Positions 4,530 through 49,990 of a stretch of 64,000 bases of DNA are shown here, one piece after another. Both the position numbers and the translations under genes were made by a program. Under the pieces are notes generated by a model, which did no database searches, was not told where the DNA came from, and saw only the letters and a list, made by a program, of their open reading frames with translations. Source of the DNA: Chitinophagaceae bacterium LGM1 (lineage in GTDB: Bacteria > Bacteroidota > Bacteroidia > Chitinophagales > Chitinophagaceae). Location of the stretch: NCBI GenBank assembly GCA_018604165.1, contig CP075895.1, positions 558,001 to 622,000 of the forward strand. Direction: 5' to 3'. Within the stretch, counting starts at the first letter, position 1. Each line of letters starts with the position of its first letter.

Positions 4530-4600
4530 CGGTGTATATTAAATTTTGAAACCAGTGGCAGATGTTATCAAATTATTACCTCTCGAAGCATTTTATGTAG

Positions 4601-4608
4601 TATTTTTG
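4601..4608 (+). promoter_or_regulatory. TAnnTTTG -7 element for pckA
   Basis: TATTTTTG followed by CCGCC, 35 nt upstream of the pckA ATG. This gives a leader of about 30 nt. Confidence 0.7.
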
Positions 4609-4643: not shown

Positions 4644-6257
4644 ATGCAGGAATTTGGTAAGAAAAACCCTTCAGCTAATCTTAGTAACATAGGGCTGAAT
4701 GTTGCCGTTGCTCACTGGAATCTCTCTCCTGAAGAGCTGACTCAAAAAACAATAGAACTGGGACAAGGCGAACTGAACGATACAGGTGCGCTTTGCGTAA
4801 GCACTGGCAAATTCACAGGCCGTTCTCCCAAAGACAAATTCACGGTAAAAGACGCTATCACTGAGCACAGTGTAGATTGGGGTGATGTAAATATCCCTTT
4901 CGCGCCAGATGCGTTTGATAAGCTGTATGATAAAGTAACAGCCTATTTGGGTGGTAAAGAAGTGTGGGTACGCGATGCTTATGCATGTGCCGACCCTACA
5001 TATCGCCTGAACATCCGCGTGGTAAACGAAACGCCTTGGGCCAACCTGTTTTGTAACGACCTATTCTTGCGCCCATCAGCACAGGAAATAGAAACACAAA
5101 CACCCGACTGGCATATTATACAAGCCCCCAGCTTTCAGGCAGACCCTGCAGTTGACGGCACACGTCAGGCAAACTTCACCATCGTAAACTTTACCCGTAA
5201 AGTCATTCTGATTGGTGGTTCGGCATATACGGGCGAAATGAAAAAAGGCATCTTCGGCGTACTGAACTTTGTACTGCCGCACGACCATAAAGTATTGAGC
5301 ATGCACTGCTCTGCCAACGAAGGTAAAAGCGGCGATGTAGCCCTGTTCTTCGGTCTGAGTGGTACGGGTAAAACTACCTTGAGTGCAGACCCTAACCGTG
5401 CACTGATTGGCGACGACGAGCACGGCTGGGCAGACGGTTCTGTTTTCAACTTTGAAGGTGGGTGCTATGCAAAATGTATAGACCTGAGTGCAGAAAAAGA
5501 GCCGCAAATTTTCAACGCTATCAAACCAAATGCACTGCTTGAAAATATCAAGTTCAATGCAGGTACTAAAACAGTTGACTATGCTGATGGCAGCATCACC
5601 GAAAATACACGTGCTGCTTACCCCATCTACCATATAGAGAATGCAAAAGAACCATCTTACGGTGGCGACCCGAAAAATATATTCTTCCTTACTTGCGATG
5701 CGTTTGGCATCCTGCCCCCCATCAGCAAGCTGACTAAGGGACAAGCTATGTACCACTTCATCAGTGGCTATACTGCAAAAGTTGCGGGTACAGAAGTAGG
5801 CGTTACAGAACCGCAAACTACATTCTCTGCTTGCTTTGGCCGCGTATTCCTGCCATTGCACCCAACAAAATATGCTGAGCTGCTGGGTAAGAAACTAGAA
5901 GAGCATAGCGATGTAAACGTATGGCTCATCAACACAGGCTGGAGTGGCGGCGCGTATGGCACTGGTAGCCGTATGAGCCTGAAATATACACGTGCTATGA
6001 TAACAGCCGCCATGAATGGTGAACTGAACAACGTAGAGTACAAAGCGCACCCAACTTTCGGTGTATTAGTGCCGCAGAGTGTACCAAACGTACCTGCTGA
6101 AATACTGAACCCACGCGATACTTGGGCAGACAAAGAAGCATACGATAAGAAGGCTAACGAACTGGCACAACTGTTTGTGAAGAACTTTGATAAATATGCT
6201 GCTCAAGCCAACGAAGAAATACTGGCAGCCGCACCTAAAGTAATGCAGAACGCTTAG
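4644..6257 (+). CDS. pckA: Phosphoenolpyruvate carboxykinase (ATP)
   Basis: Cytosolic enzyme that converts oxaloacetate and ATP to PEP, CO2 and ADP, the entry to gluconeogenesis. In some anaerobes and Bacteroidota it also runs toward CO2 fixation. The 537-residue length is normal for the ATP-dependent class. Visible motifs are the substrate loop GRSPKDKF around Arg60, the kinase-1a P-loop GLSGTGKTTLS at 237-247, and the metal-binding DDEHGW starting near 257. NTGWSGGAYGTGSRM follows in the C-terminal half. It is monocistronic, with its own promoter and a terminator at 6305-6330. A stop-rich AGTAGTAAGT-like tract follows the stop codon. Confidence 0.98.
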   Translation: MQEFGKKNPSANLSNIGLNVAVAHWNLSPEELTQKTIELGQGELNDTGALCVSTGKFTGRSPKDKFTVKDAITEHSVDWGDVNIPFAPDAFDKLYDKVTAYLGGKEVWVRDAYACADPTYRLNIRVVNETPWANLFCNDLFLRPSAQEIETQTPDWHIIQAPSFQADPAVDGTRQANFTIVNFTRKVILIGGSAYTGEMKKGIFGVLNFVLPHDHKVLSMHCSANEGKSGDVALFFGLSGTGKTTLSADPNRALIGDDEHGWADGSVFNFEGGCYAKCIDLSAEKEPQIFNAIKPNALLENIKFNAGTKTVDYADGSITENTRAAYPIYHIENAKEPSYGGDPKNIFFLTCDAFGILPPISKLTKGQAMYHFISGYTAKVAGTEVGVTEPQTTFSACFGRVFLPLHPTKYAELLGKKLEEHSDVNVWLINTGWSGGAYGTGSRMSLKYTRAMITAAMNGELNNVEYKAHPTFGVLVPQSVPNVPAEILNPRDTWADKEAYDKKANELAQLFVKNFDKYAAQANEEILAAAPKVMQNA

Positions 6258-16039: not shown

Positions 16040-16561
16040 CTAATAACGTAAGTAAACAGTAGTACTGTCTTTATAGAAATTACCATTTACAGATGTTGCT
16101 TCTGCGCAGAAAGTATATAATCCCTCTTTCAGCTCTTTATTGGGCATTGGCTTTGTGATAGCCACATACATGGCATCCGCATAACCAACTTCGTAGGCAT
16201 AGTCTTGGTAACTGATTGAAAAGTATTTGGATGATATGCTTGTCAGGTCTGCCATTGCGCTAATAGTAATATCGGGTAATGAAATAGCTGATGAACAATA
16301 CATTTTCACATCACCACGCATGATGCCATTACTTATTTTACTCGTATTTAGACAAGTATTAGCAGCAGGATAATCTTTATCTCTGATGGCAAATAAACTT
16401 AGTATTGTTTGTGGCTTGATGATTGATGTATCGTCTGTTCTTGCATCAATACCCGAATAAGTGTAGGTTCTTACAGGAGTTTCGCAAGTTTCTTTCTTTT
16501 CACAAGCTACGAAAGGAGTTAATACTATGAGCAGTGTAAATATTAAGTTAGTACGGGACAT
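16040..16561 (-). CDS. Lipoprotein of unknown function
   Basis: A 173-residue protein with a lipoprotein signal peptide: hydrophobic IFTLLIVLTPF, then lipobox FVAC with Cys20. The residues after the Cys (EKKETC) are charged, which in some Bacteroidota helps lipoproteins reach the cell surface. No known domain is recognised. Several further Cys residues (positions near 25, 70, 90 and 150) could form disulphides. It is convergent with the permease (3-nt gap). Confidence 0.65.
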   Translation of the reverse strand: MSRTNLIFTLLIVLTPFVACEKKETCETPVRTYTYSGIDARTDDTSIIKPQTILSLFAIRDKDYPAANTCLNTSKISNGIMRGDVKMYCSSAISLPDITISAMADLTSISSKYFSISYQDYAYEVGYADAMYVAITKPMPNKELKEGLYTFCAEATSVNGNFYKDSTTVYLRY

Positions 16562-16661: not shown

Positions 16662-16689
16662 TTAACTCCAATGTTACCAAATCATTAAC
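16662..16689 (+). promoter_or_regulatory. Pho-box-like triple direct repeat upstream of the porin
   Basis: Three TTAAC/TTACC units start at 16662, 16674 and 16685, one helical turn apart. The element ends 38 nt before the start of the -7 box at 16727. The same 28-bp arrangement, 20 of 28 bases identical, lies at the same distance upstream of the DUF47-PiT operon. Repeats of TTAAC-like units with an 11-bp period are the known layout of PhoB/PhoP operators. Assignment to the phosphate response is inference. Confidence 0.55.
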
Positions 16690-16726
16690 TCTTGTTTATT
16701 TATTTCTTAGGGAATTGTTACCAAAA

Positions 16727-16734
16727 TACTTTTG
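16727..16734 (+). promoter_or_regulatory. TAnnTTTG -7 element for the porin
   Basis: TACTTTTG followed by CCCGC, 20 nt upstream of the ATG at 16755. It rules out the longer frame that would start at 16692. Confidence 0.7.
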
Positions 16735-16754
16735 CCCGCATTAAAAACAGCAAC

Positions 16755-17978
16755 ATGCGTCAAGCATTTAAAACAAGTATTGCGGTATTAGCGGCTATAT
16801 GCGCCTTTAGTACTGCCTTCGCTCAAAAAGGTGACCAAATGGAACTGAAACAAGATGCCAACAAAAAGAAATGGTACGAGTCTTTCAGCATCAGGGGTTA
16901 TGTACAGGCAAGATACAACCGTGTACTGGAAACAAACCAAAAACTAAGTTGCGAACAGTGTGACCGTAGTTGGGGCGAAAACGGCGGGTTCTTTCTCAGG
17001 CGTATTCGTGTTATCTTGTTCGGGCAGATAAGCAAACAAGTGTATTTCTACTTCCAACCAGACTTTGCCAGTTCGGCTTCTACTACAGGCTTACACTTCG
17101 GGCAGATAAGGGATATGTACTTTGATTTGGGTGTGGATAAGAAAAATCGCTTCCGGTTCCGTGTTGGGCAAAGCAAAATACCTTTTGGCTTTGAAAATAT
17201 GCAATCGAGCCAAAACCGCTTGCCGCTTGACCGTGCCGATGCTCTGAACAGTGCATTGAGCAACGAGCGAGATTTGGGTGTGATGTTTTACTATGCACCA
17301 ACAAAGGTTAGAGAATTATATGCCAAACTGGTAAGCGATGGACTGAAAGGCTCCGGCGACTATGGTGTTTTTGGCGTTGGTGTCTATAACGGGCAGACGG
17401 CTAACCGCCCTGAATTGAATAACGACCGCCATTCGGTAGCAAGGCTTACCTACCCCTTCAAAATAGGTAACCAGATAATAGAGCCGGGCATACAAGGCTA
17501 TACAGGCTTCTACACCATGCCAACAGACCAGTTGTCTACAGGTACAAAAGTGAGAAAGGATATGACTTATATAGATAAGCGTGTAGCAGCTACGTTTGTT
17601 CTATACCCCAAACCATTCGGTATATTGGCTGAATATAATATAGGTAAAGGCCCTGAATTTAATACACAGACAGACAGTATAGAAGCGCGCGACCTGACGG
17701 GTGGCTTTGTAACCTTGAACTATATGCTGAAGTATAAGAGCCACATCTTTATACCCTTTACCCGTATGCAATACTACGAGGGTGGCAAGAAACATGAACG
17801 CGATGCCAGAAGCTATAAAGTAAACGAGGTGGAAGTAGGCGTAGAATGGCAGCCTGTAAAGCAGTTTGAACTGGTGGCTATGTACACTATCTCATCGCGC
17901 AGGTTCGAGGATTTTGCCAAGCAAAACAACTTGCAACAAGGCTCGTTGATGCGTTTACAAGCACAGATAAACTTCTAA
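16755..17978 (+). CDS. Phosphate-selective porin (OprO/OprP family)
   Basis: Outer-membrane beta-barrel for phosphate or polyphosphate entry. The 407-residue protein has a signal peptide (MRQAFKTSIAVLAAICAFSTAFAQ) and then the family opening FSIRGYVQARYNR. Alternating strands follow, including FRVGQSKIPFGFENMQSSQN and a C-terminal strand ending in an aromatic residue (LQAQINF), as outer-membrane insertion requires. The start at 16755 fits the signal peptide and promoter; an upstream in-frame TTG at 16692 lies before the promoter. Downstream are the DUF47 and PiT genes, so the region forms a phosphate uptake locus from outer to inner membrane. Confidence 0.88.
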   Translation: MRQAFKTSIAVLAAICAFSTAFAQKGDQMELKQDANKKKWYESFSIRGYVQARYNRVLETNQKLSCEQCDRSWGENGGFFLRRIRVILFGQISKQVYFYFQPDFASSASTTGLHFGQIRDMYFDLGVDKKNRFRFRVGQSKIPFGFENMQSSQNRLPLDRADALNSALSNERDLGVMFYYAPTKVRELYAKLVSDGLKGSGDYGVFGVGVYNGQTANRPELNNDRHSVARLTYPFKIGNQIIEPGIQGYTGFYTMPTDQLSTGTKVRKDMTYIDKRVAATFVLYPKPFGILAEYNIGKGPEFNTQTDSIEARDLTGGFVTLNYMLKYKSHIFIPFTRMQYYEGGKKHERDARSYKVNEVEVGVEWQPVKQFELVAMYTISSRRFEDFAKQNNLQQGSLMRLQAQINF

Positions 17979-18013
17979 GCATTAAAGCGTAGTGATTATA
18001 TAATTAAATAATA

Positions 18014-18041
18014 TTAAAGCCAAGGTTAAGGAATTATTAAG
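18014..18041 (+). promoter_or_regulatory. Pho-box-like triple direct repeat upstream of the DUF47-PiT operon
   Basis: TTAAA/TTAAG units start at 18014, 18026 and 18037, with the same 12 and 11 spacing as the element before the porin. The element ends 38 nt before the -7 box at 18079, exactly as there. Conserved spacer bases include CCAA between units one and two. Confidence 0.55.
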
Positions 18042-18078
18042 CATTCTGCCCTTATTCTATAGCTTTGATAAACAAAAA

Positions 18079-18086
18079 TACATTTG
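18079..18086 (+). promoter_or_regulatory. TAnnTTTG -7 element for the DUF47-PiT operon
   Basis: TACATTTG followed by CAAAC, 23 nt upstream of the ATG at 18110. It rules out the TTG start at 18065. Confidence 0.65.
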
Positions 18087-18109: not shown

Positions 18110-18757
18110 ATGGCTTTTGCATCAATAATGAAGATTTTCCTGCCGAAAGACAGGGTATTCTATGGCTTGTTTGAAGAAGTGAGCAGCAACCTCACGCAGA
18201 TGAGCGATATTTTCAACAAAGCAGTTGCAGAAAAAGATGTAACAGCCCGCCACACCCTGCTGAAAAGCCTGGAAGAATGGGAACATAAAAACGACGAGGT
18301 AACACATAAGATATTTATAGAATTGGGTAGAAACTTCATCACCCCGTTCGACCGTGAGGATATACACTACCTCGCCACATCGCTCGATGATATTGCCGAC
18401 TACCTATGGGGTGCATCTAAGCGTGTGATGAACTATGGCATTGACGACATTGATGATATTACACAAGATTTTGCGCTGATTATCGCTAAGTCCATCAAAG
18501 CCCTGAACAAGGCTATTTATGGCTTGCGCGATATGAAAGATATACGCTCGCTGACAGAGGCTTGCGTACTCATCAACAGCTACGAAAATGAAGGGGACGA
18601 TACGCTGGATAAGGGTATGGTAAACCTGTTTACTTCAAGCATCAACCCGGTAGAAATCATCAAGAAAAAAGACCTGTACCAGATGCTGGAAATTGTTACC
18701 GATAAATGTGAGGACGCGGCTAATGTGATTGAGTCAATCATTATCAAATACGTGTAA
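18110..18757 (+). CDS. DUF47/PhoU-like phosphate transport regulator
   Basis: A 215-residue all-helical cytosolic protein of the DUF47 family (PhoU-like, TIGR00153 type). These proteins are nearly always encoded beside PiT phosphate transporters and are thought to gate or regulate them. Family stretches are MKIFLPKDRVFYGLFEE, EWEHKNDEVTHKI, TPFDREDIHYLATSLDDIADYL (in two parts), YENEGDDTLDKG and DKCEDAANVIESIIIKYV. The acidic E/D..DE motifs form the metal-binding sites of PhoU-like bundles. It is followed after 24 nt by the PiT gene. Confidence 0.9.
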   Translation: MAFASIMKIFLPKDRVFYGLFEEVSSNLTQMSDIFNKAVAEKDVTARHTLLKSLEEWEHKNDEVTHKIFIELGRNFITPFDREDIHYLATSLDDIADYLWGASKRVMNYGIDDIDDITQDFALIIAKSIKALNKAIYGLRDMKDIRSLTEACVLINSYENEGDDTLDKGMVNLFTSSINPVEIIKKKDLYQMLEIVTDKCEDAANVIESIIIKYV

Positions 18758-18781: not shown

Positions 18782-20458
18782 ATGTTTACTTTTTTAGTAG
18801 TCATTATTATACTAGCCTTGGTGTTCGACTACATCAACGGCTTTCACGACGCTGCCAACTCTATCGCAACAGTCGTTTCTACCAAAGTACTTACCCCTTT
18901 TCAGGCGGTGGTATGGGCGGCAGCATTCAACTTCGTTGCATACTTTGTGTTTCAAGACCACGCTGTTGCAAATACGATAGGCAAAACGGTTTATCCTGAA
19001 TTCATTACCCTACCCGTAATATTTGCAGGGCTTATAGCCGCCATCGCATGGAATTTGCTGACGTGGTGGTACGGTATTCCCTCATCATCATCGCATACGT
19101 TGATAGGCGGGTTTGCAGGGGCAGCCGTTATGCACGCTTACATGACCAAAGGCCTTGTTGCATTCAGCTCTATCGTAGAAATTGAAAAAATATCTAAAAC
19201 CGTACTGTTTATATTTCTCGCGCCGCTTATTGGTATGCTCATATCCATGTTCATAACATTGGTAACCATCATGCGCAATGTATGGGCAAGGATAGGTATT
19301 ATTATAATTGTTACTGCAGGTACATGGATGCTATTCAACACTTTTGAGCAGAACAAGATTAAAGAGAATGTTGATAAGCTCTATAAGGTTGACAAATACG
19401 AAAAGGAACTGAAAAAGCACCCAGAAGACGAAAAGCTCAAAGAGAAATTAGACAAGGCCAAAGGTGAGGCAAAAGAAGTAATGGCTATTGCCAAATATTA
19501 CGATGCGTTGGGTGCAGAAGCTATTGCAGACAGTATGCAGGTATTGGGGCTTACCAAATCTGTAGGCGCTAACAAGGCAAAAGATGAAGTGAAAAAAGTA
19601 TATGGCCTGGACAGCATCAAAGCAGTATCTATTGCCAAGCCAGCATTGAAGCCATTGGCAGACAGCCTGAATGAAGTAGTAGAAAGCGTGAAGAAACTGA
19701 CCAAGATGTATGGAGCAGTGCCAAACGAACAATTGGCAGATAGCATTGCTACGGTATTGGGCATGACGGAAAAACAACATGCCAAGCTTACAAAAGGCAT
19801 AGATAAAATAGATGTACAGAAAGATGTGGTGAAGACATTGAAAAAAGGCGACAACTCATTTTTGATGTACGCGTTGATTGCCGTAGTATCTATATTCATC
19901 CTAAGCTATATATATGTTGATGCCCTGCGCGACCCGAGTGCCAGCCGCAAAGCCAATATGTTCAAGCGTTTACAGTTATTATCATCTGCCGCATTCAGCT
20001 TAGGGCATGGTGGTAATGATGCGCAAAAAGTAATGGGTATTATAGGCGCAGCATTTGTTGCTTACAATACACAGAAATATCCGGATGTTGGCGCGGCATT
20101 AAAAGACCTGGGTTGGGTGCCATTGGCTTGTTACACAGCCATTGCGGCAGGTACGCTTAGCGGTGGTTGGAAGATTGTAAAAACAATGGGCTCGCGCATT
20201 ACCAAAGTTACCCCGCTGGAAGGTGTTAGTGCCGAAACAGCCGGTGCGCTCACCTTGTTTATGACAGAGCAGATGGGTATTCCCGTGTCAACAACACACA
20301 CCATCACAGGTTCTATAATAGGTGTAGGTGCTACCAAACGCCTGTCTGCCGTGCGTTGGGGTGTAACTGTCAACCTGCTGTGGGCGTGGATATTGACAAT
20401 ACCGGTGAGTGCTATTATAGCAGCCATCGTATATGCTATCACATCATTGTTTGTATAA
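18782..20458 (+). CDS. PiT-family inorganic phosphate transporter with large cytosolic insert
   Basis: An inner-membrane low-affinity phosphate permease, usually proton- or sodium-coupled. The 558-residue chain has the two PiT signatures, DYINGFHDAANSIATVVST near residues 16-34 and SLGHGGNDAQKVMGII near 405-420. A VSTTHTITGSIIG stretch lies near the C-terminus. Between the two membrane halves lies a charged helical insert of about 168 residues (about 189-357). It is Lys/Glu-rich and repeats short ADS...LG motifs (AIADSMQVLGL, LADSIATVLGM). The insert is much longer than in many PiT proteins and may contact the DUF47 partner (inference). A terminator follows. Confidence 0.93.
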   Translation: MFTFLVVIIILALVFDYINGFHDAANSIATVVSTKVLTPFQAVVWAAAFNFVAYFVFQDHAVANTIGKTVYPEFITLPVIFAGLIAAIAWNLLTWWYGIPSSSSHTLIGGFAGAAVMHAYMTKGLVAFSSIVEIEKISKTVLFIFLAPLIGMLISMFITLVTIMRNVWARIGIIIIVTAGTWMLFNTFEQNKIKENVDKLYKVDKYEKELKKHPEDEKLKEKLDKAKGEAKEVMAIAKYYDALGAEAIADSMQVLGLTKSVGANKAKDEVKKVYGLDSIKAVSIAKPALKPLADSLNEVVESVKKLTKMYGAVPNEQLADSIATVLGMTEKQHAKLTKGIDKIDVQKDVVKTLKKGDNSFLMYALIAVVSIFILSYIYVDALRDPSASRKANMFKRLQLLSSAAFSLGHGGNDAQKVMGIIGAAFVAYNTQKYPDVGAALKDLGWVPLACYTAIAAGTLSGGWKIVKTMGSRITKVTPLEGVSAETAGALTLFMTEQMGIPVSTTHTITGSIIGVGATKRLSAVRWGVTVNLLWAWILTIPVSAIIAAIVYAITSLFV

Positions 20459-49466: not shown

Positions 49467-49932
49467 GATAATAAGCGACAGAGATACCTTGCTGCGCCAA
49501 GCCAATACATGGCGGGCTACGGGCAAAAAAATAGTATTTACCAACGGCTGTTTTGATATACTGCATCACGGGCATCTCGATTTATTGGCACGTGCTGCCG
49601 ATATGGGCAATGTACTGATAGTGGGGCTGAATACAGATGCATCTGTAAAACGCCTGAAAGGTAACGACCGCCCCATAACACACGAGCAAGACAGGCTGTT
49701 TCAATTAGCATCGCTGCTGTGTGTAGATGCTGTTTGTCTGTTTGACGAAGATACCCCCGAACAACTTATTCAAACCATTCGCCCCGATGTACTGGTAAAA
49801 GGTGGCGATTATAGCATAGACACCATCGTTGGTGCATCGTTTGTAACGGGCTATGGTGGCAGTGTACAGGTAGTACCCTTCGTACAGGGATACTCTACCA
49901 CTGGGCTGATAGCGAATATTAAGAAATTGTAA
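49438..49932 (+). CDS. rfaE2: D-glycero-beta-D-manno-heptose 1-phosphate adenylyltransferase
   Basis: A 164-residue nucleotidyltransferase that activates heptose 1-phosphate with ATP to ADP-heptose for lipopolysaccharide. It has the cytidylyltransferase-type motif FTNGCFDILHHGHLDLL with HxGH, LIVGLNTDASVKRLKG, and RPDVLVKGGDY. It ends with the family's GYSTTGLIANI. It is the stand-alone C-terminal domain of HldE; the kinase (rfaE1) half is not in the window. It begins inside the 3' end of the flippase-like gene. Confidence 0.93.
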   Translation: MEKIQWIERKIISDRDTLLRQANTWRATGKKIVFTNGCFDILHHGHLDLLARAADMGNVLIVGLNTDASVKRLKGNDRPITHEQDRLFQLASLLCVDAVCLFDEDTPEQLIQTIRPDVLVKGGDYSIDTIVGASFVTGYGGSVQVVPFVQGYSTTGLIANIKKL

Positions 49933-49982
49933 AATCTGCTTTTACTATCTTCATGCCACAGGCAATGCAGGGTATCAACTAT

Positions 49983-49990
49983 TACTTTTG
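49983..49990 (+). promoter_or_regulatory. TAnnTTTG -7 element for ppk1
   Basis: TACTTTTG followed by CCC. An ATG lies 3 nt later at 49994 and another at 50015; the box argues against the TTG at 49988 and favours 50015. Confidence 0.6.

Follow-up and report, generated by a model that had tools for sequence, protein, structure and literature searches.

Operators and regulons of phosphate-responsive regulators

The half-site of the E. coli Pho box is TGTCA, and the PhoP box of Bacillus subtilis is composed of TTAACA repeats. The elements described here share with the E. coli box the head-to-tail half-sites at 11 bp and a regulator with a very similar recognition helix, and differ from it in the half-site itself; with the Bacillus box they share TTAAC-type half-sites at about 11 bp. 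The E. coli box stands 10 bp upstream of the -10 box, compared with about 37 nt from the -7 box here (PMC1906773). According to the accessible part of the same source, the cyanobacterial SphR Pho box is a tandem of CTTAACCT (8 bp with 3-bp linkers, three repeats), which resembles our elements in its 11-bp period, its three repeats and its TTAA core, but belongs to another phylum and another promoter class, and the family core defined below has two half-sites (PMC1906773).

Within Bacteroidota, DAP-seq of PhoP from the PhoPR system of Riemerella anatipestifer returned 583 peaks, self-regulation and an ArcA-like motif, TTTAACA (PMC9603813). This system is of the same phylum as ours, its regulator binds its own promoter, and its motif can be set beside TTAACAAT at the phoB promoters of the present family; the likeness lies in the core letters only, and the available part of that report mentions neither an operator for phosphate transport nor a constant distance from a -7 box (PMC9603813). 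In B. fragilis, the pstC promoter is a binding target of PhoB, and phoB and phoR rise more than 10-fold in low phosphate (PMC3547664). The phosphate permease BF3715 and the porin O gene BF0375 are PhoB-dependent there, as we propose for their counterparts here: in low phosphate, BF3715 changes -52.2-fold in the phoB mutant, and BF0375 changes +3.55 in the wild type and -2.70 in the mutant (PMC3547664). A second porin O gene (BF2289) and the transporter BF4351 fall under low phosphate. The B. fragilis regulon differs from that of the present family in that the pst genes are strong targets, and the consulted part of the report defines no binding sequence (PMC3547664). In F. johnsoniae, the OprP gene beside phoBR was not induced by phosphate depletion (-1.3, FDR 0.25), and phoB was up 3.06, which fits autoregulation (PMC8115612).

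A search of open-licence titles and abstracts revealed, among the matches listed, no Pho box described for Chitinophagaceae, and most subscription papers lay outside this search. A Bacteroidota version of the operator had been called poorly described in a first-pass annotation of this DNA, which holds for the family but less so for the phylum, where a PhoP motif has been published for Riemerella (PMC9603813) and a PhoB regulon for B. fragilis (PMC3547664), as far as the accessible parts of these reports go. As far as these searches go, the kind of operator is known and the variant is new.

Two matching repeat elements at the phosphate locus

The window, a stretch of 64,000 nt of Chitinophagaceae bacterium LGM1, lies in a genome of 3.32 Mb in one contig. 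It carries a porin O/P family gene followed by a DUF47-PiT operon, with the following features (scores are those of the matrix described below).

16662..16689, + strand: triple repeat on the porin side (units TTAAC at 16662, TTACC at 16674, TTAAC at 16685)
16669..16691, + strand: conserved 23-nt putative operator core of the porin promoter, CAATGTTACCAAATCATTAACTC (score 27.9, maximum 31.1)
16727..16734, + strand: -7 box of the porin promoter, TACTTTTG
16755..17978, + strand: porin O/P family gene (PF07396)
18003, + strand: extra TTAAA, 11 nt before the DUF47-PiT triple repeat
18014..18041, + strand: triple repeat on the DUF47-PiT side (units TTAAA at 18014, TTAAG at 18026, TTAAG at 18037)
18021..18043, + strand: conserved 23-nt putative operator core of the DUF47-PiT promoter (score 21.6)
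18060..18067, + strand: alternative TAnnTTTG box, TAGCTTTG, 20 nt from the DUF47-PiT core
18079..18086, + strand: -7 box of DUF47-PiT, TACATTTG, at a spacing that agrees with relatives
18110..18757, + strand: DUF47 gene (PhoU_div, PF01865)
18782..20458, + strand: PiT phosphate permease gene (PHO4, PF01384)

The pattern TTAM-N8-TTAM-N7-TTAM occurs at two places only in the window, the porin and DUF47-PiT promoters. The unit starts of both triplets are exactly those given in the first-pass annotation, and recomputation returned the same identity between the two 28-mers (20 of 28 bases) and the same position of the -7 boxes, which begin 38 nt past the last base of each 28-mer in both promoters. 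The second TAnnTTTG at 18060 had gone unmentioned; the box at 18079 is preferred over it because the spacing in relatives peaks at 37-40 nt. An RNA element was considered for the locus and rejected, with no Rfam match between 16400 and 18400 and the site lying upstream of the -7 box. The divergent gene adjoining the porin (16040-16561, - strand, 173 aa) is without any Pfam match.

Judged from the sequence comparisons that follow, both elements are most likely operators (Pho boxes) of the one PhoB-like regulator of the OmpR family in this genome, and a PhoB-type regulator very probably controls the phosphate uptake genes through this site.

Conservation upstream of DUF47-PiT in the family

DUF47 is present in 139 of 147 family genomes (149 matches, with a second match in 10 of the 147). 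Upstream DNA was read for 148 of the 149 copies, the second copy of G090 being left out; at least 150 nt were available for 147 of these 148, and 138 of the 139 main genes were scored. The combination of TTA-N8-TTA with TAnnTTTG at 34-41 nt was found in 86 of the 147 upstream regions. Five dinucleotide shuffles averaged 0.4, a control that does not take away the kinship of genomes related by descent. The -7 box by itself was present in 102 of the 147 regions, compared with 30.4 after shuffling.

The 86 aligned promoters (80 main genes and 6 second copies) gave the consensus CAATrTTAAgAAATTATTAAtT. The distance from the second TTA to TAnnTTTG was 37 nt in 43 promoters, 38 in 22, 39 in 14, 40 in 5 and 34 in 2, so that 84 of the 86, searched at 34-41 nt, fall at 37-40 nt. 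Since the bases upstream of the core and most of the stretch from core to box carry little information in these promoters, what is conserved is the site together with its distance. A matrix was built from the same alignment, with a cut at the 1% level of mononucleotide shuffles. It matched upstream of 117 of the 138 main DUF47 genes (118 of 138 by two-fold cross-validation), and two of the remaining 21 genes carried a reversed site. In several promoters that have no exact box, a variant such as TAATTTCG was seen by eye at about the same distance. The orthologous promoters keep the site, as the first-pass annotation had anticipated for an operator of the PhoB/PhoP type working with the Bacteroidota -7 box, and such an operator is accordingly still what we predict from these alignments; it would be present in most of the 138 genomes sampled, which cover up to 95 genera of one family.

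The layout originally proposed needs correction in part. Direct repeats with an 11-bp period, one of the marks of a Pho box, are present, but the conserved unit in the family is a pair of half-sites 11 bp apart and not the triplet with its 12-bp spacing. Only 4 of 117 promoters, including that of DUF47 in this genome, have a further TTA placed 12 nt ahead of the core pair, and the 12/11 triplet is therefore mainly local to this genome's two promoters. Reversed sites at a fixed distance, described below, also depart from the layout first given. A third TTA stands 11 nt before the first core TTA in 29 of 117 promoters, and one 22 nt upstream in 14 of 117 is perhaps enriched as well (0-11 promoters at the other offsets between 6 and 30). 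Where it is present, in roughly one promoter in four, the third half-site at -11 may make binding stronger.

In six genomes (G113, G014, G045, G127, G112 and G013) a PstS-like gene lies about 0.5-2 kb from DUF47 on the opposite strand. The site at DUF47 is missing in five of these six, which perhaps have a different layout of the phosphate locus.

Porin and PstS loci

Among porins directly upstream of DUF47, counted as tblastn matches to the window's porin on the same strand, nine of ten have the site, five in forward and four in reversed orientation. For the reversed porin sites, the box is 33 nt away in G132 and G042, and in G025, G053 and G032 the site was found at the porin and none at DUF47. 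Six of the 147 genomes, the present one not among them, encode a PstS that exceeds the curated cut-off (7 genes); a PstS-like match at 1e-15 occurs in 77 of 147, that of this genome reaching 81.4 of 206.6 bits. Six PstS loci were read, the seventh (the second copy in G020) being left out. In three of them (G088, G020 and G082) a reversed site precedes a porin-like gene followed by pstS, and no site was found in the other three. The gene in question is a porin by Pfam in two of these loci and has no Pfam match in G082. TAnnTTTG stands 33 nt from the site in G088, and no exact box was found in G020 and G082. Conservation before phosphate uptake genes, a further mark of a Pho box, is thus seen at DUF47-PiT, at the porin and at some porin-pstS loci.

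Promoter geometry and proposed mode of action

The sigma-A promoter class of Bacteroidota includes a -33 element. In the 86 aligned promoters no such element was found: of the 30 columns that precede the box, only ones among the last 7 nt rise above 0.2 bit. The promoters do carry the TAnnTTTG box, which is the Bacteroidota -7 consensus and occupies positions -12 to -5 (PMC9723704). An arrangement of the E. coli type, with the operator about 10 bp upstream of a -10 hexamer, is not what is found here, the distance being 37-40 nt, or 33-35 nt for reversed sites.

The operator unit would be the 23-nt core with its two half-sites (rTTA) 11 bp apart, to which two PhoB protomers may bind in head-to-tail arrangement, both on the same face of the DNA. 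With the box placed at -12 to -5, the pair of protomers would be centred about 52-57 bp upstream of the transcription start. From there, bound PhoB may recruit RNA polymerase to a promoter that has no conserved -33 element and, as an activator, would substitute for the missing polymerase contact from a position further upstream than that of E. coli PhoB. Phosphate shortage would in this way raise phosphate uptake through the porin and PiT, as well as PhoB itself. We infer the role of activator from the position of the site and from the need of BF3715 and BF0375 of B. fragilis for PhoB.

Repression has to be weighed against this scheme. Other bacteria use PiT for low-affinity uptake, and in the orfA-pit operon of Sinorhizobium PhoB represses the low-affinity route. 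A PhoB operator that represses DUF47-PiT in the same manner would agree with this known role of PiT. The Na+-dependent phosphate transporter BF4351 of B. fragilis also fits such a role, since it changes -101-fold in low phosphate in the wild type, with no change listed for the phoB mutant in the part of the report available (PMC3547664). Against it, the site is placed upstream of the -7 box and not over it, a similar geometry recurs at phoB and at the porins, and the B. fragilis permease BF3715 requires PhoB (PMC3547664). Moreover, PiT may be the main uptake route in this family, because PstS over the cut-off is confined to 6 of 147 genomes, even if 77 have some match at 1e-15. Repression of DUF47-PiT is, on balance, improbable.

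With activation by PhoB as the preferred reading, the family is predicted to meet phosphate starvation largely through the porin and PiT. To our knowledge, little has been established about how activators act with the unusual Bacteroidota -7 promoter. Since a clear consensus, a named candidate regulator, a fixed spacing, two orientations and occurrence in most genomes come together here, the geometry of activation is open to direct testing.

The PhoB-like regulator and its own promoter

The genome encodes seven OmpR-family regulators. A site within 400 nt upstream was found for one of the seven only, the PhoB-like one (score 13.7, the others at most 0.1).

G000:C1:1227137-1227826: PhoB-like OmpR-family response regulator, with a PhoR/PnpS-like kinase downstream

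The best model of this regulator is TIGR02154 PhoB (213.9 bits, cut-off 296.2); it reaches 208.2 bits against the Bacteroidota PhoB model (cut-off 270), and the kinase reaches 249.4 of 400 for PnpS and 223 of 334.2 for PhoR. The names PhoB and PhoR/PnpS accordingly stand for best match and context, because these scores lie below the cut-offs. The recognition helix, VWGTDVIVGDRTIDVHIRKIRQKI, is close to that of E. coli PhoB; its DVHI is missing in the other six regulators, and 28 orthologous recognition helices are nearly identical.

An orthologue of the regulator occurs in 141 of 147 genomes (these regulator counts exclude a 41% match in G074 and the extra matches of G115 and G124). Its promoter was compared in 48 genes, a sample that was not random and consisted of the 30 closest and 20 hand-picked ones, mostly with the regulator near DUF47, minus L341 and L362 at a contig end. 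The score was at least 6 in 39 of these 48 promoters, compared with 1.8% of 960 mononucleotide shuffles, so that a site at the regulator's own gene, suggestive of autoregulation and a third mark of a Pho box, is predicted for 39 of 48. At a looser cut (1.5), 42 of the 48 phoB promoters carry a reversed site; its distance from a TAnn(A/T)TTG box is 33-35 nt in 35 of the 42 and 22-24 nt in 7 of the 42, both the cut and this form of the box having been chosen after viewing the sequences. The seven closer ones (L357, L358, L360, L361, L366, L453 and L459) differ by about one helical turn. By eye, the reversed phoB site overlaps a terminator-like hairpin and T run of the upstream gene in several genomes (L337-L349), and this overlap could explain part of the conservation at some phoB promoters. 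The hairpin was not seen in L353-L358, L360 and L361, where the site is kept.

Direct repeats of the GTTAA type with an 11-bp period are common to the OmpR family and by layout alone name no regulator, and the site may therefore be asked to belong to another member of it (ArcA-, RprY- or CusR-like), the more so as the Riemerella PhoP motif has itself been noted as ArcA-like (PMC9603813). Site and PhoB-like regulator are only weakly associated across genomes, which favours this alternative: 114 genomes have both, 18 the regulator only, 3 neither (G075, G090 and G134) and 3 the site only (Fisher p = 0.045). Two of the last three are less than 80% complete, and the third is G074 with its 41% match. 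However, the 400 nt upstream of each of the other six OmpR-family genes are free of the site, its conserved targets serve phosphate transport, and the PhoB-like regulator alone has the DVHI recognition helix. The regulator, the only one examined in this respect, is also a neighbour of DUF47, no more than 20 kb away in 39 of 133 genomes (upstream and on the same strand in 38 of the 39), which we take by judgement to be far above chance in genomes of 2-8 Mb. Ownership by another OmpR-family regulator thus appears slightly less probable still than repression by PhoB.

If the site is that of the PhoB-like regulator, it may further define a Pho promoter class peculiar to Bacteroidota, in which a PhoB dimer, oriented either way and helix-phased (33-35 or 22-24 nt at reversed phoB sites), sits at a single fixed distance of about 41-45 bp from the -7 box and activates promoters that have no -33 element, with the family regulon shifted from Pst to a small set of porin, DUF47-PiT and PhoB. 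We give this broader proposal an even chance.

Genome-wide distribution of the pattern

The genome scan had been expected to return hits before other phosphate genes, and did so in part. The bare triple pattern gave 17 matches in the whole genome and 12 in its reversed control; enrichment is not clear, and the pattern is unusable as a scanner alone because it is so near its control. When the box was added to three TTA units spaced 12/11, the resulting composite had the porin and DUF47-PiT promoters as its only exact matches in the genome. With up to two mismatches it gave 48 matches (46 beyond the two exact ones), compared with 34 in the control. One of the two-mismatch matches falls 20 nt ahead of this genome's second DUF47 gene, which had been found independently.

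G000:C1:849518-850239 (L065, L212): second DUF47 gene, preceded by a site of its own (score 15.1, units spaced 11/11), with the box TATTTTTG again at this distance

In addition to this promoter, recovered by the composite, the core pattern recovered that of the phoB-like regulator. Since the composite scan exceeds its control and finds the second DUF47 promoter, the two elements at the locus are more than chance, on the evidence of spacing and conservation and not of the repeats alone. That two AT-rich promoters should be alike by accident, or that one promoter was copied within the locus, is scarcely credible: the bare triple pattern would allow it, but most sampled DUF47 promoters retain the core with its spacing and not the flanking bases, a local copy would not yield sites at phoB or porin-pstS, and as a full explanation both are refuted by the conservation of the DUF47 promoters together with the sites at phoB.

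Searched blind in 147 genomes, a composite pattern gave 68 matches. Of these, 39 stand within 400 nt upstream of DUF47 (37 genomes), 3 at a porin before DUF47 and 26 elsewhere, the last not above a reversed control of 37. The F. johnsoniae phosphate-depletion data (PMC8115612) motivated a check of five related Flavobacterium genomes, F. johnsoniae not being included. The composite was not found there above control (2 matches compared with 1), which counts against the operator reading, and Flavobacterium PhoX-like loci (PhoX-family matches in 3 of 12 genomes) had no matrix match above 3.

The core pattern gave 63 matches in five genomes, compared with 36 in the control. Of 50 loci 45 were examined, the other five being the known DUF47 and porin sites; most were boxless, with TAnnTTTG absent within 70 nt in 38 of the 45, and many of the 45 score above 10. 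L419 in G026 (22.6) and L449 in G094 (19.5) are such sites without a box, followed by a beta-propeller-like gene and a gene without a Pfam match, respectively, neither with a known role in phosphate metabolism. The operator matrix is usable for mapping the regulon, but used alone it is not specific: without the box it gave seven matches of at least 6 in the 64-kb window, three of which reach at least 20 (porin, DUF47 and pckA).

4560..4582, + strand: third candidate site in the window (score 20.1), with TATTTTTG 22 nt further on (4560-4608 overall)

This candidate precedes the gene for an ATP-type PEP carboxykinase (pckA, 4644-6257), with the box nearer than at DUF47. Because 38 of the 45 core loci have no nearby TAnnTTTG and some boxless sites score high, pckA is the sole candidate that we name for a wider regulon. 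Elsewhere in the window, positions 49907-49936 match the DUF47 element in 19 of 28 bases (matrix score 12.4, no box at the usual distance), and this match stands about 50 nt before a polyphosphate kinase frame that begins at 49988.
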